A DNA stretch of 48,785 nt from Bacteroides sp. GTDB lineage: Bacteria > Bacteroidota > Bacteroidia > Bacteroidales > SM23-62. Shown in pieces: positions 19,107 through 46,084 of the stretch (its first letter is position 1; each line of letters starts with the position of its first letter). The stretch spans positions 1 through 48,785 of the forward strand of contig DAOWJB010000076.1 of the NCBI GenBank assembly GCA_030640625.1. The letters run 5' to 3'. The translations under genes were made by a program, and so were the position numbers. The notes below the pieces were generated by a model, which had not been told where the DNA came from, did not search any database, and saw only the letters and a program-made list of their open reading frames with translations.

Positions 19107-21530
19107 TCAGAAAATACCGGGATATTTCTCCGGATTGGATTCATGCATTATCTCATAGAGGATCTCGAACACATCCTCGGCACTTGGATTGGAAAAATAA
19201 TCACCATCTGTTCCATAGGCAGGCCTGTGATCCCGTTGCGAGATGGTTCTGGGTTGTGCATCAAGATATTCATAAGCTCCCTGCTCCTCGAGCACCTTCT
19301 GCATCATGTAGGCGGTGGCTCCCCCGGGAACATCTTCATCGAAAAAAACAACTTTCCCGGTTTTCCTGACTGATTCAAAGATGGTGTGCGGTAGATCAAA
19401 GGGAATCAGCGTTTGTACATCGATCACTTCCACATCAATATTGAAATCCTCCAGCTGAGCAACGGCCTCCTCTGCTATCCTGACACAGGAACCATAGGTC
19501 ACCAGCGTAATATCTTCTCCGGGGCGGATGATCTCGGGAATCCCCAGCGGGATCCTGAACACACCCAGGTTTGATGGCATCCGCTCCTTCAGGCGATATC
19601 CGTTAAGCGGCTCAATCACCAGGGCAGGATCATCCCCCTCAAGCAGTGTATTATAAAATCCGGCAGCCCGGGTCATATCGCGTGGTACACAAACATAAAC
19701 CCCGCGAATGGAATTGATCACCATACTGAGGGGGGAGCCAGAATGCCAGATCCCTTCCAGCCGATGTCCCCTGGTCCGGATAATCACCGGTGCCGACTGT
19801 GCCCCTTTTGTCCGGTAATGCATGGTAGCCAGGTCATCGCTGATGGTTTGAAGTCCATACAGCAAATAATCGAAATACTGTATCTCGGCAATCGGCCTGA
19901 ATCCCCTCATGGCCAGGCCAATCCCCTGCCCGATAATGGTGGTTTCCCGGATCCCGGTATCGGTGATCCGCTGTTCGCCGTATTTTTCCTGCAATCCCTC
20001 CAGGCTCTGGTTCACGCCCCCTATTTTGCCGGTATCCTCTCCGAAAGTTACCAGCATGGGATATTTGGCAAAGAGGCGGTCGAAATTCTCCCGCAATATC
20101 TCCCTTCCTGTCACTTCTAACTCCTCATCAGGGTATTCGGGCATAACCGGCTGGACATTCAAAACGGACCGGTCACTTTCATTGTACAGAAAAGCGCTAT
20201 AATGATCCCAGGCCTCATCGTACTGCCGGTTAAGCCAGGCATTTATTTCTACCTGTAATTGGTTCCTTACGGGACAATCAGAACAGATATGCCGGAGAAC
20301 CTTCTTGGCCGTGGAGAAATTATCTTTACGTATGGGATTCCTGACTTTTTGGAGGTTTTTGCGCAGGATTTTGATCTTGTCTATCTCATCGGAGGCACAT
20401 TTACATTTTTTGTGCACCAATATATCGACCAGTTCATCCCTCTCCCTGCTTATGGCATCAGTGTAATTTGCCCAGGCAGTCTCACGGGCCTTTTTTACAC
20501 GCAATACAGCTTCTTTTTCAATGCTATCCAGATCTTCTGAAGTAGCAAGATTACTTTCCAGTATCCACTCCCGCATTTTTTTCAATGGATCAAATTCCTT
20601 TTCCCACTCCAGCCTTTCCTTCGATTTATACCGTTCATGCGAGCCTGAGGTGGAATGTCCGAGTGGCTGGTTCATCTCATCGATATGAAACAAGACAGGT
20701 ATATGCGCTGACCTGCATCTTTGAATTCCTTCTTCAAAGACCTTGCATAATCCAGGATAATCCCAGCCCCTGGCATTGTATATCAGGATGCCGTCTTCTT
20801 TTTCATTTGCTTCGAATCCTTTCAATGCAGCCGAAATACTCTCCTTTACTGTCTGGTAATCACGTGTTACAGAAATGCCATATCCATCATCCCATACAGC
20901 AACAGCCATGGGGATCTGCAATACGGCGGCGGCATTCATGGTTTCAAAAAAATGGCCCTCGGAAGTACTTGCATCCCCGATCATTCCGAAAGCTACTTCG
21001 TTCCCATTATCAGACAGGTGGCCGGTCCCATTCAGTTCCGTATTATGCCTGAACAGCTTTGAAGCATAGGCAAAACCCACAAGTCTAGGCATTTGGGCCG
21101 CTGTCGGGGAAAGATCTGCTCCGGAATTTTTCTGCTCCATCAGATTTCTCCAGGAACCGTCAGGATTAATATTACGAGTGGCAAAATGATTGTTAAAGTT
21201 CCTTCCTGCATTTCCCGGATTCAACTCCGGATCAGTACACCCGTAGATCTGGGCGAAAAATCCCTCCGGTGTCACGATACCTGCAGCCATCATGAAGGTT
21301 TGGTCCCGGTAGTACCCCGACCGCCAGTCCCCATTCCTGAAATTCTTTGCCATGGCGATCTGTGCGATTTCCTTGCCATCACCAAATATTCCAAATTTCG
21401 CTTTTCCCGTCAGTACTTCTTTTCTGGCTACTACACTGCAATGCCTGCTGATATGTGCCATCCGGTAATCTTCCAGTACTTCTTCCCGGAAAGAATCATA
21501 GGAGATCTTCTGCATACTCTCATCCTTCAT
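19107..21530 (-). CDS. Fused 2-oxoacid dehydrogenase E1 alpha-beta subunit
   Basis: An 807-residue thiamine-diphosphate enzyme that decarboxylates a 2-oxoacid and reductively acylates E2 lipoate. The alpha half (~1-340) has the TPP motif from IGDASTSEGHFFETMNAAA (Gly185-Asp186) to WDDGYGIS, where the usual Asn-Asn is Asp214-Asp215. After a ~140-residue middle segment, the beta half (~480-807) has VTFGEDTGKIGGVNQSLEGL, DTGIRETTIIGQGIGLAMRG and the C-terminal IDVQTLIPFDLPHT. The ATG at 21530 is chosen over a TTG four codons upstream. Its E2 partner is at 4368-5756. Pyruvate or branched-chain 2-oxoacids are both possible; the fused form is frequent in Bacteroidota. A -7 box (21558-21565) precedes it. 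Confidence 0.92.
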   Translation of the reverse strand: MKDESMQKISYDSFREEVLEDYRMAHISRHCSVVARKEVLTGKAKFGIFGDGKEIAQIAMAKNFRNGDWRSGYYRDQTFMMAAGIVTPEGFFAQIYGCTDPELNPGNAGRNFNNHFATRNINPDGSWRNLMEQKNSGADLSPTAAQMPRLVGFAYASKLFRHNTELNGTGHLSDNGNEVAFGMIGDASTSEGHFFETMNAAAVLQIPMAVAVWDDGYGISVTRDYQTVKESISAALKGFEANEKEDGILIYNARGWDYPGLCKVFEEGIQRCRSAHIPVLFHIDEMNQPLGHSTSGSHERYKSKERLEWEKEFDPLKKMREWILESNLATSEDLDSIEKEAVLRVKKARETAWANYTDAISRERDELVDILVHKKCKCASDEIDKIKILRKNLQKVRNPIRKDNFSTAKKVLRHICSDCPVRNQLQVEINAWLNRQYDEAWDHYSAFLYNESDRSVLNVQPVMPEYPDEELEVTGREILRENFDRLFAKYPMLVTFGEDTGKIGGVNQSLEGLQEKYGEQRITDTGIRETTIIGQGIGLAMRGFRPIAEIQYFDYLLYGLQTISDDLATMHYRTKGAQSAPVIIRTRGHRLEGIWHSGSPLSMVINSIRGVYVCVPRDMTRAAGFYNTLLEGDDPALVIEPLNGYRLKERMPSNLGVFRIPLGIPEIIRPGEDITLVTYGSCVRIAEEAVAQLEDFNIDVEVIDVQTLIPFDLPHTIFESVRKTGKVVFFDEDVPGGATAYMMQKVLEEQGAYEYLDAQPRTISQRDHRPAYGTDGDYFSNPSAEDVFEILYEIMHESNPEKYPGIF

Positions 21531-21557
21531 AGGCTGATCCAATATTTTGTATCAGGA

Positions 21558-27368: not shown

Positions 27369-28721
27369 TTACTCTAATTCTTTGATCATCTGATCAATTC
27401 CTTGCCTGATTATGGACTGGATCTCGATTTTCGAGGGACAGACGAACTCGCAAAGGGCGAAATCCTCCTCGGCTACCTCGAATATTCCCAATTGTTCCAT
27501 TTTCTCAATATCATCCACAAGGATGGCTTTCAAAAGGTGCATCGGGTATATGTTCATGGGCAGGACCTTCTCATACTCGCCGGTCAATACAAATGGCCTT
27601 TCTCCTCCCTTCAGATTGGTATCAACCTTATATTCCCTGCCAGGCATCAGCCAGGTGGCAAAACTCCTGGAAACGCTGAATTTGTTAAATCCAGGTGCTA
27701 TCCAACCAAACATTTCGTAATAATTCCCTTCCGGCAGGATGGTCAACTGACTGTCATAATAACCAAGGTATCCGATTTTATTTATTTTGCTTCCGGTAAG
27801 GGCATTTCCGCTGATATACCTCAAATCTCCCGGATTCACATTATCCACTACAAAGGGCTCAATACTGGTTCCGCTTAATACCTTGAAATACCTTGGCTTT
27901 TTAACCTCCGAACCGGTTACGGCTATTACCTTGGTGGCATCATAGACTCCCTGTTCAAACAAACGGCCAATCATGACCACCTCCTCGGGTTGTATGTACC
28001 AGACTGTCTCATCCTTGTTGACAGGGTCAACATGATGGATCTGAATGCCAGGATTTCCAGCCGGATGTGGTCCTTTAAAATAATGCAGGGTAACACCAGT
28101 TACTTCAGTAAAAACATCAGCGGCAGGATAATCAGCATTCAGGGAAAGGTGGACATCTCCCCTGGTTAGCTTATTCAGGACATTGATCCCTGTTTGAAAA
28201 ACCTTGTTGTTCCCTTTCACCACAAAATCCATATCCGGTGCCAGTGGGGCTGTATTAAAACCTGAAATAAAGATGGCTTTTGGTTCAACCTGTGAACGGG
28301 CAATCACCGCATAAGGCCGCTGCCGGATAGATGGCCAGAGGCCGGCATCCTGGATTTTCTGAATGATCTGCCCCCGGTCAAGAAACCCCGGATCGGCAGC
28401 CCTGAATTCTTCATATTCATTCTTTCCATCGGCTTCAACAACCACCTCCAGTATTCTTCTTCTTTCCCCCCTGTTGACGGCCTTGACCACACCACTGACC
28501 GGTGAGGTAAATTTAACTTCGGGCCTGAGTTTATCAAAGAAAAGGACCGATCCTGCTTTTACCGTATCTCCTGGCCTGGCAGCCAGTTTTGGCATGATCC
28601 CGGGAAAATCGATGGGTTTAACAGCGTAGGTAGAGGCAGGTTGTACGTTGGAAATAATCTTTTCGGCAGTTCCTTTCAGTTTTATATCAAGACCTTTCTT
28701 GATCTTAAATACCTTGGACAT
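27369..28721 (-). CDS. nqrA: Na+-translocating NADH:quinone reductase subunit A
   Basis: A 450-residue cytoplasmic subunit, the first gene of the nqr operon. It begins MSKVFKIKKGLDIKLKG, the family start, which is why ATG 28721 was chosen over one seven codons upstream. It contains DFPGIMPKLAARPGDTVKAG (KLAARPGDTVKAG), a biotinyl-lipoyl-like beta region, and a C-terminal AEEDFALCEFVCPSKIEIQSIIRQG with paired cysteines (CEFVCPSK). NqrA contributes to the quinone site. The promoter just upstream fits the Bacteroidota consensus well. Confidence 0.96.
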   Translation of the reverse strand: MSKVFKIKKGLDIKLKGTAEKIISNVQPASTYAVKPIDFPGIMPKLAARPGDTVKAGSVLFFDKLRPEVKFTSPVSGVVKAVNRGERRRILEVVVEADGKNEYEEFRAADPGFLDRGQIIQKIQDAGLWPSIRQRPYAVIARSQVEPKAIFISGFNTAPLAPDMDFVVKGNNKVFQTGINVLNKLTRGDVHLSLNADYPAADVFTEVTGVTLHYFKGPHPAGNPGIQIHHVDPVNKDETVWYIQPEEVVMIGRLFEQGVYDATKVIAVTGSEVKKPRYFKVLSGTSIEPFVVDNVNPGDLRYISGNALTGSKINKIGYLGYYDSQLTILPEGNYYEMFGWIAPGFNKFSVSRSFATWLMPGREYKVDTNLKGGERPFVLTGEYEKVLPMNIYPMHLLKAILVDDIEKMEQLGIFEVAEEDFALCEFVCPSKIEIQSIIRQGIDQMIKELE

Positions 28722-28753
28722 GGAATAATTTTTGATTTGCAAAAAACGTTTGA

Positions 28754-38208: not shown

Positions 38209-39546
38209 CTAGATGATGCCCTGATCAAGCATGGCATTGGCCACCTTCATAAAGCCGGCAATATTGGCTCCATTTACATAGTTTATATAGCCATCGGGTT
38301 CTGTCCCATGTTCCACGCAGGCGACATGGATATTGGTCATGATCTCATGAAGTCGTCTGTCAACCTCTTCCCGTTGCCAGTTCAGTTTCATGCTGTTCTG
38401 TGACATTTCGAGGCCGGATGTGGCAACACCACCTGCATTGGCAGCTTTACCGGGAGCATACAGGATCTTGTTCTCCTGGAGTAATTCGATGGCTTCCGGT
38501 ATACAGGGCATATTGGCTCCTTCACAAACACAAATACAACCGTTCTTCACCAGGTTTTTAGCATCCTCCTCATTAAGCTCATTTTCCGTTGCGCAGGGCA
38601 TGGCAATATCGCATTTTACTTCCCAGGGATGTTTACCGGGCACGAACTCTGTCCCTTCAAACTCATAAGAATAAGGTTTGACAATATCTTCATTGGAAGC
38701 ACGCAGCTCCAGCATATAGTCTATTTTTTCACCGGATACTCCTTCCTGATCATGTACATAGCCATCCGGACCGGACAGGGTGACTACCTTCCCTCCCAGC
38801 TCGACAACTTTCTGTGCGGCGCCCCATGCTACATTGCCGAATCCGCTGATAGCAACCGTCTTTCCTTCAAATGTTTCCCCTTTTGTGGCAAGCATTTCCT
38901 TGGCGAAATAGACACAACCAAAACCTGTGGCTTCTGGACGGATCAGGCTGCCTCCCCAATTAATGCCTTTACCTGTTAACACACCCGTATTCTCCCTGGC
39001 CAGTTTTCTGTATATTCCATAAAGGAAACCTATTTCACGCGTACCTACACCGATGTCACCCGCCGGTACGTCGGTGGACGGGCCAATCAGTTTCCAGAGT
39101 TCAAGCATAAAGTGCTGGCAAAAACGCATGATCTCGCTGTTCGATTTCCCTTTTGGATTGAAATCAGATCCTCCTTTGGCACCACCCATTGGCAATGAGG
39201 TCAGGCTGTTCTTGAAAATCTGTTCGAATCCCAGGAACTTCAGTATGCTCAGGTTGACACTTGGGTGAAACCGAAGACCACCTTTATATGGCCCGATAAT
39301 ATTATTGAATTGGATCCGGTACCCCAGGTTCACATGTACATTTCCCTGGTCATCTTCCCAGGGTACTTTGAAAATAAGAATCCTGTCTGGCTCTATGAGC
39401 CGGTCGATAATACCGGCTGCCTCGAAATGTGGATTGGCATTGTAAATTTCCTCAATGGATTCCAGGACTTCCCGTACAGCTTGATGATATTCCGGTTCTC
39501 CCGGGTGCTTTTTCTCGAGTTCAACCATTACCCTGTCAACGTTCAT
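38209..39546 (-). CDS. gdhA: Glutamate dehydrogenase, hexameric, probably NADP-dependent
   Basis: Reversible amination of 2-oxoglutarate to glutamate. The 445-residue protein belongs to the ~450-residue small hexameric family: PYKGGLRFHPSVNLSILKFLGFEQ (KGGLRFHP), catalytic lysine in LPMGGAKGGSDFNPKG, DVPAGDIGVGTREIGFLYG and the dinucleotide loop ISGFGNVAWGAAQKV. C-terminal NAGGVATSGLEMSQNS matches. Biosynthetic use with NADPH is the usual role. It has a 93-base upstream region with no good promoter match. The neighbouring PPDK-like genes on the same strand are upstream of it and could read through. Confidence 0.95.
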   Translation of the reverse strand: MNVDRVMVELEKKHPGEPEYHQAVREVLESIEEIYNANPHFEAAGIIDRLIEPDRILIFKVPWEDDQGNVHVNLGYRIQFNNIIGPYKGGLRFHPSVNLSILKFLGFEQIFKNSLTSLPMGGAKGGSDFNPKGKSNSEIMRFCQHFMLELWKLIGPSTDVPAGDIGVGTREIGFLYGIYRKLARENTGVLTGKGINWGGSLIRPEATGFGCVYFAKEMLATKGETFEGKTVAISGFGNVAWGAAQKVVELGGKVVTLSGPDGYVHDQEGVSGEKIDYMLELRASNEDIVKPYSYEFEGTEFVPGKHPWEVKCDIAMPCATENELNEEDAKNLVKNGCICVCEGANMPCIPEAIELLQENKILYAPGKAANAGGVATSGLEMSQNSMKLNWQREEVDRRLHEIMTNIHVACVEHGTEPDGYINYVNGANIAGFMKVANAMLDQGII

Positions 39547-39639: not shown

Positions 39640-42615
39640 TTAGCCGGAAAAGGTATCCTTATAGATAACCCCTTTATTGGATTTGCCATCTACCTCTACC
39701 CTGAGTGGTTTGTTAAACCGGATATGTCTGAAATACTCATTTTCCATGGTTGCGGGGAGCTTATCAAGATATTCAAGGTCAAAGAACCCATCATTAATAA
39801 ATGGATTGATGGTGAAATAACCTACCCTGAATGAAGTGATGTTCTGGAAAAAGTGGGTACCCTGGCTGGGATCGATCCGGTAATTTTCCAATCCGGATTC
39901 GATAATCACCCGTGCAGCTGAAAGCTGGGCCCATTTGGCAGGTATCCCAAGCCAGGGATCAGTCGATCCCCATCTTCCCGGTCCGATCAGGATGTAATTT
40001 TTCCCATCGCGTAAGAACTCTTCATTTTTTGCCTCGATCAGTCCAGCAATTTTACTGTTGTTCGCAGGATCAAATGAAGCTGGTTTTACATATACCAGGT
40101 CCTTGAGATCTTCAAAGGATCCATTCCCCAGAGCCGATTCAGAATATACGATGGTATCTTCCAGATTGACATCATCAAGTTTGAAGCTAATGCTCTGATC
40201 ATTTAAAACAATCGGCCTGATCTGAAGGAAACTGAAAACAGCAGGAAGTCCGGTCGGCATATCCAGATTTATGGCAAATTCTATTTCTATCGGGTTATTC
40301 ATTTCCTTCTGGCCTGTCTGCAGAAGGTCGCTCAGGATTTTTGCCAGTGGAATGGCATTATAATTCAGCAGCTGTGAGAAGGTGACAACCCGCTTTCCGG
40401 GACCATATACACCATCCCTGATCATATGGTTCTCATAATCATAGGTGGATGCGGCATACCTGAAGGAAGCATCTTTCTCTGCATCTTTGAAGGGTATCTT
40501 CAGCAGGTTTGCCCCATCGTCCACAGAAGGAATGAAACTATTGGGATCCAGGTTGACAGCCAGGAATTTTTTCTGGGTATCCTTTAAGACCATATCAGGA
40601 TCTGAAAGTTGAAGTACCTTTTTGGGATATTTGGGTGAGAATCTGAGTCCAACGCCGCCTTCCATCAAATATTTTCCGAGGCCGTAGGCAATTACTGCAA
40701 TACCATCTTCTGGTTTTTCCGGTTCGATAGGATAAAAGTTAATAGACCGGGCAACCCCCGACAGGGAAGGGTAAAATCTGTCTCCATATGCAGATCCGCA
40801 CACCTCCTGCAAAATAATGCCCATTTTTTCCTCGTCTATCACATTGGAAGTGGCAGCCATATAAGATTTACTGCTTTTATAATAGACCGAGGCATACACA
40901 CTTTTTATGGCTGCTGTAAGGATGTTAAGCATATGATCCCTGTCTTCTTTGTCACAAGGGACCATATAGGTGGAATAGATCCCTGCAAAAGGCTGGTAAT
41001 GAGAATCTTCCAGCTTGCTAGAACTCCTCACGGCCACAGGATTCTCGAGGACCTCGACAAATGCCTTCAAATCCTGAATTACCCAGTCCGGCATGGCAGC
41101 ACGGAGGAAATAATCCAGGATCTCCACGTCCTCTTTATCGGACAGGGCCACCCCGAACAGATCATTTTCTACCATAAAATCATCAAAAACATCCGTACTC
41201 AGGACAACCGTTCTGGGTATGGTTATCACAATCCCCGGATATTTATTGAAAAGATGATGTTTTTCAATAATTGAGTTGATAAATGCCAGTCCCCTGGCTT
41301 TACCACCGCTGGATTCTTCTCCTATTCTGCTGAATACCAGGTATTCATTAAATTTATTCCTGTTAAATTTTGCAATGATACCCCGGCCCTTGGCAATCCT
41401 GAAATTGGAGATGGACTCATAGAGGTAGCTCCTCAATTCATCCAAACTTGGAAAATCCTCATTTCTCACGTGTTTAAACAACTGGGCAACCTGAAATAAT
41501 GCCCGGGCATTCAGCCATTTGGAAAAATCATTGCGCCCGGAATGCAATTCTAGCACCTTTTCAGGGATCTTCAGTATCTCTGTCTGCATGGCCTGCAGGT
41601 CCTCGGCCCTGCCAATCTCTTCCATGGTGTCAGGATCACGAAAAACAAAATCTCCAAATCCAAAATTTTCAAGGATGTATTGATTCAGTTCATGCGAGAG
41701 AGACTTTGAATATTTATGCATAAACCCAATGCCCAGGTCTTTAGCCTCCTTTGCCATGGTTTCATCGGATGACTGCAGGAGGAAAGGCATGAACTTATCT
41801 TCCTCTTTGACCAGCCTGCAAAATTCAAGGCCCATTTTTCCCTTCTGCCTACTCCTGGCATTTTTCTTAAAGTTCACATCAGATATGATCCCCAGCATAT
41901 TATACTTGTACTTCTGGAATAGTTTTACAGCGTCATCAAGGGACGTAGCCAATAGAACCTTTGGCCTCCCCCTCATCCGCAACATACGATGATGTTCATT
42001 CAGGGCTTCCTCGCTGAATTCCCTGGATTGTTTCAGGATAATTTTATACAGGTTAGGAAGATAACTTGAAATATACCTGATGGAATCCTCCACCAGCAGA
42101 ATTGTCTGAACACCAACTGCCTCCACATCATGCTCGGCATTCATTTTGTCTTCGATTAGTTTGATGATGGCAAGGAGAAGGTCTGCATTTCCAAGCCATG
42201 AAAAAACATAGTCAATGGCAGAAAGGTCTTCTTTTTGAAGTCGTACAGAAACTTCACGGGAGAAGTGAGTGAGCGTTACGATGGGTATCTCCTCATACTT
42301 GGCCTTGATCTGTTTTGCCAGCTCAAAGGTATCGATGTCCTCAATATTCAGCATTTCAATGATCAGGTCAATTTGCTCCTTTTTCAGGATCTTAAAAGCT
42401 TCCCTGGCAGAATTTGCCAGGATAAATATGGGGGGATAACGCAGGTTCAGGGAAACATATTCATTAAAGATCTGTTCATCAATGCGACCGTCCTCTTCGA
42501 TCATGAATGCATCATAATTGCTGCAGATCAATAATACCTTCCGGATACGTTTTTGCATCAGGAGGTTAAAAGGCGGCTGGCCAAAATCAATGGTGGGAAT
42601 GTTTAATTTATTCAC
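39640..42615 (-). CDS. Receiver / PEP-synthase-type ATP-grasp fusion protein (second gene of pair)
   Basis: A 991-residue protein. Residues ~26-155 look like a receiver domain without its phospho-acceptor (IDLIIEMLNIED, Met where Asp is expected). Residues ~170-318 are a second receiver with the acidic pair Glu176-Asp177 (LLVEDS), acceptor Asp246 (GIISDVNF), Ser283 region (LLQSSDE) and Lys301. Residues ~430-803 are a PPDK_N/PEP-synthase ATP-grasp domain: SSGGKARGLAFIN, AVRSSSKLEDSHYQPFAG, IEIEFAINL, LQIRPI. The phosphohistidine and PEP-binding domains of PEP synthase are absent. Instead a C-terminal module (~820-991) has ILIGPGRWGSTDPWLGIP and GTHFFQN with His921. The GTG start overlaps the previous stop by 8 bases. 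Function unknown; probably a cytoplasmic ATP-dependent phosphotransfer or signalling protein. Confidence 0.85.
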   Translation of the reverse strand: MNKLNIPTIDFGQPPFNLLMQKRIRKVLLICSNYDAFMIEEDGRIDEQIFNEYVSLNLRYPPIFILANSAREAFKILKKEQIDLIIEMLNIEDIDTFELAKQIKAKYEEIPIVTLTHFSREVSVRLQKEDLSAIDYVFSWLGNADLLLAIIKLIEDKMNAEHDVEAVGVQTILLVEDSIRYISSYLPNLYKIILKQSREFSEEALNEHHRMLRMRGRPKVLLATSLDDAVKLFQKYKYNMLGIISDVNFKKNARSRQKGKMGLEFCRLVKEEDKFMPFLLQSSDETMAKEAKDLGIGFMHKYSKSLSHELNQYILENFGFGDFVFRDPDTMEEIGRAEDLQAMQTEILKIPEKVLELHSGRNDFSKWLNARALFQVAQLFKHVRNEDFPSLDELRSYLYESISNFRIAKGRGIIAKFNRNKFNEYLVFSRIGEESSGGKARGLAFINSIIEKHHLFNKYPGIVITIPRTVVLSTDVFDDFMVENDLFGVALSDKEDVEILDYFLRAAMPDWVIQDLKAFVEVLENPVAVRSSSKLEDSHYQPFAGIYSTYMVPCDKEDRDHMLNILTAAIKSVYASVYYKSSKSYMAATSNVIDEEKMGIILQEVCGSAYGDRFYPSLSGVARSINFYPIEPEKPEDGIAVIAYGLGKYLMEGGVGLRFSPKYPKKVLQLSDPDMVLKDTQKKFLAVNLDPNSFIPSVDDGANLLKIPFKDAEKDASFRYAASTYDYENHMIRDGVYGPGKRVVTFSQLLNYNAIPLAKILSDLLQTGQKEMNNPIEIEFAINLDMPTGLPAVFSFLQIRPIVLNDQSISFKLDDVNLEDTIVYSESALGNGSFEDLKDLVYVKPASFDPANNSKIAGLIEAKNEEFLRDGKNYILIGPGRWGSTDPWLGIPAKWAQLSAARVIIESGLENYRIDPSQGTHFFQNITSFRVGYFTINPFINDGFFDLEYLDKLPATMENEYFRHIRFNKPLRVEVDGKSNKGVIYKDTFSG

Positions 42616-45600
42616 CAGATATATGGTTATTCCAAGTGATCAGGGAAGTACGCTTCTTCCCATCCATCACTATGGTTAAGGGTTCTTCAAATTCAATATG
42701 GGTTATATATTCCTTGTCACTGATAACTTTTTGCATTTTCAGTTTTTCCCAATCGATATAATCCGTATCAGAATCATGCTTAACGGATAAATATCCGACA
42801 TTCATGGAAGTCAAATTGTGAAAGAAATGGGATCCGAGCGAGGCATCCAGCGGAAATTCAGGCAGGCTTATTTCAACAATTACCCTGGCGTTGGATATCT
42901 GAGGCCAGACCAGCGGGATACCGATAAAACGGTCCCTGGTACCCCAACGACCCGGACCGATCAGGACGTACTTCTTGTCTTTTTTCACCATCTCGGCATT
43001 CAAGGCTTCAATTTCAGGGATAATCTCCTGTGTCCTTGTTTTATTAAATTTCTCAGATTTTATAAATACTACATCCCGGATATCCTCCACTGTCCCATTC
43101 CCCATGCTGCGCTCTGCATACAATAGGATCCTGTCCCTGTCAATAAGCTCCATATTTATCTCAAAATCATCCATGCTTCCTGCCAGCGGCTTGAGTTGCA
43201 GCAGGTAAAAGGAGGCCCGTCCTTGTTCATCCCTGTTGAGATCAACCGCATATTCAATTTCCACGGGAGCACCCAGGGCTTCCTTTACTACATTCAGGAT
43301 CAGTTCGATTGTTTTGGCCATGGGTATGTACTCAAATTTGAGTATGTCTGCAAAATTTATGATACGTGGACCAGAGGCATCGAGTCCAGGTGTAACTTTT
43401 TGATTATCATAATTATATACCGATGCACAATGATTCAGGGTACCATGTCTTTCGGCCTCATTGATCTCCAGCCTGATGAGTCCTGCATCCTGACCCAATC
43501 TCAGTAGTTCCGGGTCTTCCTTTTCCATGTTAATGGCATAAAAAAACACCTGCGAACCCTTTATCTGCTCCTGTGGTGTATAATTCTCCAGATCGGGGTA
43601 TTTGGGAGAGAACCGGTAGGCCTTATAGCCTCCCACTACGTATTGTCCGAGTCCCAATGCAGATACTGCATAGCCGTCTTCCGGCTCCATATGTGCCACC
43701 GGATAAAAGTTATAGGACTGTGCCGTACCACTTATATGCGGATAATAATAACCGTTGAAGGGATTGCCTACTACCTCCTGGATAACGACAGCCATCTTTT
43801 CATCATCGACCCTGAAATTGATGGCTTCAAAATAACTGCGGGCATGGTTGGAAAAAATAGAAGCATATACAAGTTTTATGGCATCTATTGCCTGCTTCAG
43901 CCGGACCTTGAATTCAGCATGATTATTGGGAAGTAAATAGGTGTCGAATACACCGGAGAAAGGATGGGTATTACTGTCCTCCAACAGGCTGGAGGACCTG
44001 ATTGCCAATGGCGTCTTTACATTTTTTACTAGGGTACGCAGTTTTTTTTCCAGACCATAAGATAGATCACCTTCAAGGAACTTTTGCTTGATTTCTTGAT
44101 AGTCAATGCCTGAATGTACCTGGTCATTCAACTTATTTCTTTCCATGAACAGGTCAAACTCGTCTGTACCAATCACAGAGGTAATGGGTGTCCTGATCTG
44201 GATACCGGGAATAATTTCTGAAAAATTCAGGTTGTAGATCAGCGTATTTACGAAAGCCAGTCCCCGTCCCTTCCCTCCAAGAGCGCCAGTACCCATGCTG
44301 ACAATATTTTTTTCATCAAGAATGGCATTCTCTTCAAAATTGATTATCTGCCCTATATTGGCATCATTACGGTGTTTCCCGATGACGTCTTTGAGATAAT
44401 TCCTGAATTCCAACGTGGTTTTGAAATCTGAAACCTGAATTGGATGGATCATTTTGGCGATCTTGATCTCGCCTCTTGCCATCAACCAAAGAGTAAAATG
44501 ATTACGGTTCGCATGATAAACAAGTGACTCCTCGGGAATGGTATCTATGTGATTTTCGAATTCCTTGAGTGTCCTGGCCTCTGCAATGGTTTTACCCGAA
44601 GCATCCTTGTAAACAAAATTCCCGAATCCCAGATGATGTTTTATAAAACTTTCAATATCCTGTATCAGGGTTTCTGAATTTTTATTAATGAATATCGATT
44701 TCAGTTCAAAGGCACGGTGTGAATTCTGGACATCGGAGGACTGGATAACGGTAGGTAATCCCCTTATCTGTTTCCTGATCTGTCGGACCAAGCCAAAACC
44801 TGCTTCCTCATCCATGGCCCCTACCCGGGGGTATTTAACATCCGTGATCAGGCAAAGAAGGTGCTCCTTGTACTGATTAAAGATATCTATAGCCTGTTCA
44901 TATGTAGTGGCCAGCAGGATTTTCGGGCGTGCCCTCATCCGCAATACCTTCAAAAGGTCATCCGAGCTTACATCCTCAATGATCCGCTCGGTATGTTCCA
45001 TCACATTGCTGTATAGCAGCGGCAGGTAGCGTGAATAGTATTTTTCTGAATCTTCGACCAGCAGGATCACTTTCACCATGCCAATATTCGTATCGTTTTC
45101 TACATTAACCTTATCTTCCAGTTGTAAGATCATGGCAGAGAAGATCTTGCTGTCTCCATTCCAAACGAAGATCCTGTCAATAATATCAAGATGATTTGAA
45201 TGCTCCTTAAACCGTGTGATCTCCAGGTTATTATTCAGCAGGACATAGATTGGAATATAAGGGAAATCTTTTTTTACCCTGGTCCCTATCTGAATGTGTG
45301 TATGCCAGTCGCTACTGATCATCAGGATCACCAGGTCGAAATGTTTTGAATTCAATTGTTCAAGTGCTTCCTTATAGGTGGATACCCCGGTGACCCTGGG
45401 CATAGATGTTTGGTTAAGCTGGCGATATTCCCCTAAGATGTATTCGGAGAAATGACCCTCTTTCTCTATAGCATAAGCATCATACAATGTTGCCACCAGC
45501 AGGATCTCCTTTACCCTATAGGGCATCAGGTCATGAAAGATATCCCGGTTTGCATTTTGTTTATTCAGGAATTTCTGGAGAAGCTGCCTGGAACTGAGGG

Positions 45601-46084
45601 TGGGCGTTTGAAATTCAGATTTTTCAGATTTATCCTTGATCTTTTCCTTTGAAAGCTGTAAAATCTCCCTGGCTTCCAGACTGTCAATATAATTCGACAG
45701 GATACTTGCCAGATTAATGATCAGGTCTCTTTCCTCCTTGAGGAAGGGTCCCTCATCAAATTCCTTGAATTTCCGAAGGTAATAGACCTCTATCATACCT
45801 TCTTCCCTATCGACTGTCTGGAAAATCTGCTGCTGACACCATCCGGTCTTCCTGAAATTCTGCGACAGGTATTCCTTCCCTGCATAACGGATCCGGGCCA
45901 CAGTCCGTTCCGGGTATTGCCAGGCCCGAGGCAGGATCTGCACTATCTGCTGAAATGTTTCGCTCAGGGATTTCCCCTCTTTCAGGATCTGGGTGGTACG
46001 GTTTATACAGGCCAGTTCCTTCAGTCGCTCCTTCTTTTCAGCGATGATCCTTTCAACTTCTCTGGGATTGCTGTTTTCAGCCAT
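42608..46084 (-). CDS. GAF / receiver / PEP-synthase-type ATP-grasp fusion protein (first gene of pair)
   Basis: An 1158-residue paralogue of the next gene with an added N-terminal GAF-like sensor (~15-140). A receiver-like domain without acceptor (~190-320, FDLVILMISSDW) is followed by an intact receiver (~337-490: Glu344-Asp345, Asp415 in LITDVKYP, Ser450 region, Lys468 in FINKNS). The ATP-grasp part (~598-967) has ALGGKGRGLAFVN, AIRSSSLLEDSNTHPFSG, VEIEYAVDL and LLQLKPL. The C-terminal module (~985-1158) repeats LIGPGRWGTRDRFIGIP and GSHFFHN (His1086) of the partner. No phosphohistidine domain is present. A -7 box lies 17 bases upstream, and korB ends 131 bases away on the same strand behind a strong terminator. 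Function unknown. Confidence 0.85.
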   Translation of the reverse strand: MAENSNPREVERIIAEKKERLKELACINRTTQILKEGKSLSETFQQIVQILPRAWQYPERTVARIRYAGKEYLSQNFRKTGWCQQQIFQTVDREEGMIEVYYLRKFKEFDEGPFLKEERDLIINLASILSNYIDSLEAREILQLSKEKIKDKSEKSEFQTPTLSSRQLLQKFLNKQNANRDIFHDLMPYRVKEILLVATLYDAYAIEKEGHFSEYILGEYRQLNQTSMPRVTGVSTYKEALEQLNSKHFDLVILMISSDWHTHIQIGTRVKKDFPYIPIYVLLNNNLEITRFKEHSNHLDIIDRIFVWNGDSKIFSAMILQLEDKVNVENDTNIGMVKVILLVEDSEKYYSRYLPLLYSNVMEHTERIIEDVSSDDLLKVLRMRARPKILLATTYEQAIDIFNQYKEHLLCLITDVKYPRVGAMDEEAGFGLVRQIRKQIRGLPTVIQSSDVQNSHRAFELKSIFINKNSETLIQDIESFIKHHLGFGNFVYKDASGKTIAEARTLKEFENHIDTIPEESLVYHANRNHFTLWLMARGEIKIAKMIHPIQVSDFKTTLEFRNYLKDVIGKHRNDANIGQIINFEENAILDEKNIVSMGTGALGGKGRGLAFVNTLIYNLNFSEIIPGIQIRTPITSVIGTDEFDLFMERNKLNDQVHSGIDYQEIKQKFLEGDLSYGLEKKLRTLVKNVKTPLAIRSSSLLEDSNTHPFSGVFDTYLLPNNHAEFKVRLKQAIDAIKLVYASIFSNHARSYFEAINFRVDDEKMAVVIQEVVGNPFNGYYYPHISGTAQSYNFYPVAHMEPEDGYAVSALGLGQYVVGGYKAYRFSPKYPDLENYTPQEQIKGSQVFFYAINMEKEDPELLRLGQDAGLIRLEINEAERHGTLNHCASVYNYDNQKVTPGLDASGPRIINFADILKFEYIPMAKTIELILNVVKEALGAPVEIEYAVDLNRDEQGRASFYLLQLKPLAGSMDDFEINMELIDRDRILLYAERSMGNGTVEDIRDVVFIKSEKFNKTRTQEIIPEIEALNAEMVKKDKKYVLIGPGRWGTRDRFIGIPLVWPQISNARVIVEISLPEFPLDASLGSHFFHNLTSMNVGYLSVKHDSDTDYIDWEKLKMQKVISDKEYITHIEFEEPLTIVMDGKKRTSLITWNNHISGE

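Follow-up and report, generated by a model that had tools for sequence, protein, structure and literature searches.

Relatives of PPDK that have been turned into regulators of metabolic enzymes have a precedent in VadK (Rv1127c) of Mycobacterium tuberculosis. This shortened PPDK relative undergoes autophosphorylation at a histidine residue and interacts with enzymes of the methylcitrate cycle (PMC13400623). The two proteins described here, termed P1 and P2, resemble VadK in combining a PPDK-derived ATP-grasp domain that lacks the PEP/pyruvate domain with a conserved histidine. For VadK, regulation through binding of enzymes of central metabolism has been proposed; the same can be proposed for P1 and P2 on the grounds of their genomic linkage to glutamate dehydrogenase (GDH). 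On the other hand, VadK retains a normal swivel domain with the autophosphorylated histidine, is devoid of receivers and targets the methylcitrate cycle, whereas none of the tests run relates the histidine-containing module of P1 and P2 to a swivel domain, and it is GDH to which their genes are linked.

When the P1 model was compared with the PDB using Foldseek, the closest ATP-grasp folds were those of rifampin phosphotransferase (RPH; 5hv1, E 1e-12; PMC4844700) and of the two-component dikinases HpeHI/PpsAB (HpeI, 9goj; PMC12167813), in addition to PPDK itself (1ggo). RPH and HpeHI/PpsAB carry swivel and small-molecule domains and no receivers, while P1 and P2 contain neither a swivel nor a small-molecule domain. 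PPDK and PEP synthase share the ATP-grasp motif pattern GGK, VRS, [DE]xE and LQxR with P1 and P2 but possess a swivel domain and a PEP barrel, both of which are missing here. The fold search of P1 also returned PleD, in which two receivers precede the output domain as in P1, and PorX from Bacteroidota, in which a receiver likewise stands ahead of an output domain. The outputs of these proteins are GGDEF or PglZ, in contrast to the ATP-grasp domain and new module of P1 and P2. A survey of the open literature, a scope that leaves most subscription papers outside and is no proof of absence, yielded no paper on the P1/P2 family or on PPDK_N-receiver fusions; in public databases the family is present under a generic name.

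The genes for P1 and P2 are located in a window of 48,785 nucleotides, i.e., the whole stretch of DNA that was analysed (Table 1). The stop of P2 and the start of P1 overlap (GTGAATAA). The earlier note had described two paralogous genes overlapping by 8 bases, each encoding a receiver without acceptor, a complete receiver, an intact PPDK_N domain and a shared C-terminal module, and Pfam matches and alignment bear out every one of these parts. Promoter and terminator scans of the two outer junctions of the pair gave scores no better than those of shuffled sequence. On the minus strand the genes follow the order KorA-KorB-P2-P1-GDH, which represents the 2-oxoglutarate branch point.

Table 1. 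Positions of the P1/P2 gene pair, its encoded domains and the adjoining genes within the window.
Feature	Position	Strand	Basis
P1 gene (991 aa): receiver (no acceptor), receiver, helical linker, PPDK_N ATP-grasp, C-terminal module	39640..42615	-	ORF, Pfam, alignment, AlphaFold2
P1 receiver 1, Met replacing the acceptor Asp (residues 25-165)	42121..42543	-	Pfam Response_reg, alignment
P1 receiver 2, complete: E176/D177, D246, S282, K301 (residues 169-318)	41662..42111	-	Pfam, alignment, PleD-like double receiver in Foldseek
Codon of D246, predicted phospho-acceptor, invariant in 150/150	41878..41880	-	Conservation alignment
P1 PPDK_N ATP-grasp domain (residues 435-807)	40195..41313	-	Pfam; Foldseek
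P1 C-terminal module (residues ~815-985), GPGRWG and THFF	39661..40173	-	Alignment, structure prediction, conservation
Codon of H921, invariant His at N-terminus of predicted helix	39853..39855	-	AlphaFold2, conservation
P2 gene (1158 aa): N-terminal sensor-like region, receiver (no acceptor), receiver, PPDK_N ATP-grasp, C-terminal module	42608..46084	-	ORF, Pfam, alignment
P2 N-terminal region, proposed GAF (residues 1-160)	45605..46084	-	Weak PDB profile match
P2 receivers, two (residues ~190-485)	44630..45517	-	Pfam, alignment
P2 PPDK_N ATP-grasp domain (residues 601-971)	43172..44284	-	Pfam
P2 C-terminal module, GPGRWG and SHFF	42635..43147	-	Alignment
Glutamate dehydrogenase (GDH), directly downstream of P1, 93 bp gap	38209..39546	-	Recurrent neighbour of the family
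KorB-like TPP subunit of 2-oxoacid:ferredoxin oxidoreductase, 131 bp upstream of P2	46216..47244	-	Neighbours the family in 12 loci
KorA-like subunit, ORF probably cut by contig end	47241..48680	-	Relatives of 614-615 aa

Residue conservation was counted in the 173 family members that are 500 aa or longer and, for the receivers, in 150 full-length P1/P2-type proteins. The PPDK_N domain is recognized by Pfam in P1 and P2 with E values of 1e-33 and 3e-37, respectively, and K439, R530, E536, E779 and Q798 are unvarying wherever the region is present. The PPDK-type ligands K, R, ExE and Q are all found in the ATP-grasp domains of P1 and P2, with the equivalence between P1 and PPDK residues resting on motifs, as the mafft alignment is unreliable beyond the main ones. 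The intact PEP-synthase-type ATP-grasp domain reported earlier is thus supported by Pfam as well as by retention of the ligand residues among the relatives. At the position of R800 of P1, corresponding to the last arginine of the PPDK motif LQxR, P2-type proteins contain lysine (23/23) where P1-type proteins have arginine, hinting at a different activity of the two paralogues.

Receivers are matched by Pfam in both proteins, in P1 by PF00072 and in P2 below the curated Pfam cut-off. The acceptor position of receiver 1 is occupied by M88 in P1 and by methionine or threonine in 102 and 36, respectively, of the 150 full-length proteins; aspartate is not among the residues listed for this position. 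Receiver 2 displays the whole set of response-regulator residues (DD/ED pair, acceptor Asp, T/S and Lys): D246 and K301 are invariant (150/150 each), S282 is serine in 149 sequences and threonine in one, and in the acidic pair formed by E176 and D177 the latter position is aspartate in 142 and asparagine in eight cases. Judged from these alignments, the architecture of P1 and P2 is real, ancient and strongly constrained.

The larger protein had been suggested to carry a GAF sensor domain. This assignment is unproven, as the N-terminus of P2 gave no Pfam GAF match and only a weak PDB profile match to Nlh2 (4g3v, E 0.024 over 33 residues); one relative has a PAS_9 domain in this region. With regard to the input, the statement that no cognate kinase lies nearby holds true for the window, where none adjoins the pair, though not for the family, since a kinase adjoins P1 in several other genera. 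Beside the P1 gene, loci L158, L162, L204 and L205 encode a PAS-PAS-HisKA_3 kinase together with a LuxR-type response regulator, and homologues also occur in L210 and L215; kinase and regulator are candidates for the signal source of the family. In the first four loci these genes are situated between two GDH-P1 units (L158, 7673-10422; L162, 9322-11394).

The AlphaFold2 model of P1, based on an alignment of 76 sequences, reached a mean pLDDT of 86.5 and a pTM of 0.79, and the C-terminal module modelled alone scored 87.2 and 0.86. The motifs GxGRWG and H921 ([TS]HFF) are unvarying wherever this region is present, so that the earlier claim of an invariant histidine in the module finds support in all of the 173 members in which the position is aligned.

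Relatives of P1 were detected in 39 of 41 genomes in a set made up of the window's genome and related ones; in a phylum-wide sample of 297 genomes, 48 gave a match at E ≤ 1e-30. The named holders include Bacteroides, Phocaeicola, Parabacteroides, Lutibacter, Gillisia and Candidatus Delongbacteria. Full-length P1 often occurs alone, and P2 is restricted to part of the group. Shorter forms of about 580 aa consist of ATP-grasp domain and module without receivers and are also found beside GDH, while a branch of about 1060 aa carries an additional NTP_transf_2 nucleotidyltransferase domain; the two forms often constitute an adjacent pair. The existence of these receiver-less and NTP_transf_2 forms identifies ATP-grasp domain plus module as the core of the family and the receivers as an added layer of control. 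Members of the NTP_transf_2 branch (about 28% identity; L152-L156, L148-L150, L223-L225) contain PPDK_N and the same C-terminal module and usually adjoin a divergent GDH. Pfam confirmed the NTP_transf_2 domain in L156, L147 and L150. In several genomes this branch is paired with the receiver-less 580-aa form, and it is a possible GDH nucleotidylation system.

GDH is a main route by which Bacteroides, Prevotella and their relatives, the dominant bacteria of gut and rumen, assimilate ammonia. Reversible inactivation of the enzyme in vivo was reportedly observed in B. fragilis by Yamamoto and co-workers in 1987. A neighbourhood survey in Bacteroidota, proposed in the earlier note, has now been run and reveals as recurrent partner of the family the very GDH next door to P1 that this note had missed. 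GDH genes were searched in 80 family-carrying genomes and their distances to family genes measured. Outside the taxonomic order of the window, a GDH gene lies within 3 kb of 55 of the 67 family genes, with a chance expectation of about 0.5% per gene. Inside that order the values are lower (16/50 within 3 kb, 24/50 within 10 kb), partly because contigs are short; GDH is also absent near the family on some long contigs (G020 and G036). Clustering of neighbours that did not presuppose GDH returned it as the commonest neighbour family, present in 70 loci vs. 21 for the next, and of 82 loci flanked on each side by 4 kb or more of sequence, 44 have GDH within 4 kb. The next metabolic partner after GDH is KorA-KorB.

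Relative to the family gene, GDH is found upstream on the same strand (40 cases), downstream (23), divergent (15) or convergent (2), and in the GDH tree family-adjacent sequences appear on both sides of the deepest split and in many clades. This varied orientation together with the deep separation of the GDH clades indicates that the linkage is not one inherited arrangement. It is seen across Bacteroidota and in Candidatus Delongbacteria and extends to the divergent GDH beside the 28%-identical NTP_transf_2 branch. Recurring layouts are GDH-P1-GDH and GDH-P1-HK-RR-GDH-P1-GDH, and in the RefSeq entry for Parabacteroides distasonis gdhA is divergently adjacent to a P1 homologue annotated as 'PEP/pyruvate-binding domain-containing protein'. 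The genomic link between GDH and the family is strong. GDH itself does not need the family, as 39 of the 41 genomes that lack a P1 match have GDH.

As its recurrent partner, GDH is the most likely target of the family; genomic linkage by itself does not show it to be a substrate. According to the title of a study by Baggio and Morrison (1996; cited in PMC4539542), one or more trans-acting genes downstream of gdhA affect GDH activity in B. thetaiotaomicron, which belongs to the same order of bacteria as the source of the window. The downstream position named in that title does not match the divergent P1 of the Bacteroides loci examined: in B. bouchesdurhonensis and Bacteroides sp. 51 the gene adjoining GDH encodes a peptidase, and P1, instead of lying downstream of GDH, is oriented divergently from this peptidase gene. 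Being conserved, well bounded and repeatedly adjacent to GDH, the family is a concrete candidate for the reported trans-acting control of GDH activity.

Based on the invariant ATP-grasp residues, the complete receiver 2, the invariant histidine of the module and the recurrent linkage to GDH, we propose that P1 and P2 may constitute a receiver-gated, ATP-driven phosphotransfer unit that would regulate GDH and thereby the 2-oxoglutarate/glutamate branch point, a reading that we regard as the most likely one and to which we assign a probability of roughly 45%. A histidine kinase would phosphorylate receiver 2 and thus turn the output on or off, the ATP-grasp domain would phosphorylate H921, or H921 would serve in catalysis, and the phosphoryl group or the activated protein would act on GDH or on a different protein belonging to the 2-oxoglutarate node. 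GDH would probably either be modified covalently and reversibly or be bound in a regulated fashion, and P1 and P2 may split the work, e.g., by acting in opposite directions or as halves of a heteromer. If true, this would provide a case of a receiver driving a PEP-synthase-type ATP-grasp domain. A more specific version, in which a receiver-controlled protein kinase with a dikinase-type ATP-grasp domain and a catalytic histidine in an unseen fold reversibly modifies GDH as the Bacteroidota counterpart of GlnE/GlnD control of glutamine synthetase, is tentative and in our view rather unlikely.

The origin of the closest ATP-grasp folds, RPH and HpeI, from small-molecule dikinases speaks for P1 and P2 being metabolite kinases or dikinases, the module of which would bind 2-oxoglutarate, glutamate or a relative for phosphorylation from ATP, and the invariant GxGRWG/HFF surface could form the substrate pocket. 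A shared pathway would explain the adjacency to GDH. We nevertheless consider this unlikely, because signalling is suggested by the two receivers and the sensor-like N-terminus, duplicate copies bordering duplicate GDH genes fit a regulator better than a pathway enzyme, and a pathway product is not evident.

Alternatively, the ATP-grasp domain might be a sensor of adenylate charge and not a catalyst, with ATP/ADP binding and receiver phosphorylation jointly controlling non-covalent binding to GDH. The receiver architecture and the GDH linkage agree with this, control of GDH by the energy state is plausible, and GarA in mycobacteria sets a precedent for binding proteins that regulate GDH. However, the matches to the PPDK metal/phosphate ligands (E777/E779, Q798, R530 and K439) and H921 show no or almost no variation among the 173 members, which exceeds the usual demand of nucleotide binding and renders a mere sensor improbable.

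Compared with the phosphotransfer unit proposed above, a further possibility assigns a different part to the module, namely that of a strongly diverged swivel domain whose acceptor is the receiver aspartate of the same protein, so that the dikinase would charge the receiver without a histidine kinase. From sequence and general knowledge, one would expect a swivel domain to show much the same succession of elements as is predicted for the module (b-b-a-b-a-b-loop-His at helix N-terminus-b-b-b, where the helix beginning with the histidine follows the fourth main strand) and to have its histidine where the only invariant one of the module is located; this resemblance is no more than suggestive. 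On the other hand, P1 and P2 lack a Pfam match to the phosphohistidine swivel domain (PF00391), the module has neither a Pfam match of its own nor a PDB match by sequence profile, and hhalign, run with shallow and deeper alignments against the swivel domains of PPDK-like proteins and of shorter PF00391 proteins encoded in related genomes, detected no similarity. Foldseek retrieved no PDB fold match (best E 0.022, TM 0.24), and no viral relative was present in BFVD. The phosphohistidine swivel motif T/SxxGGxxxH (PMC12167813) is absent from the module, and receiver-less forms exist beside GDH. A charging swivel domain is thus distinctly improbable. The earlier note had conceded that its proposal would fall if the module turned out to be a diverged phosphohistidine domain, and Pfam, PDB profile, profile-profile and fold comparisons did not overturn it. 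Given the lack of any sequence, profile or fold match, the missing motif and an element order that is merely suggestive, the module represents a new fold or else a relative of the swivel domain that has diverged past recognition; in any case it is not a recognizable part of PEP synthase. The family as a whole may be a regulatory variant of the PPDK-type ATP-grasp proteins, and it contains a confidently predicted domain without known fold relative, which may prove to be a new fold.

That P1 and P2 are a PEP synthase/PPDK or a broken remnant thereof, as the PPDK_N match and the public annotation quoted above could imply, is rejected as next to impossible on domain content, since neither a swivel domain nor a PEP barrel is recognizable, separate PPDK pieces (PPDK_N and a PF00391 swivel match) are encoded in the same genome and phylum-wide conservation of residues excludes decay. 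No Pfam match to the PEP/pyruvate TIM barrel was obtained for P1 or P2, nor is any unassigned region large enough for it; in agreement with the earlier view that the pair cannot make PEP, such synthesis is very unlikely.

Other genes in the window were also inspected. The KorA ORF comprises 479 aa from an internal GTG, compared with 614-615 aa in its relatives, and is probably cut by the contig end. NqrA (27369-28742) heads an apparent Nqr operon running to about 22861, of which Pfam confirms NqrA only. Besides the ferredoxin-type KorAB, the window encodes a fused E1-alpha/beta 2-oxoacid dehydrogenase (E1_dh and transketolase domains) at 19107-21542.
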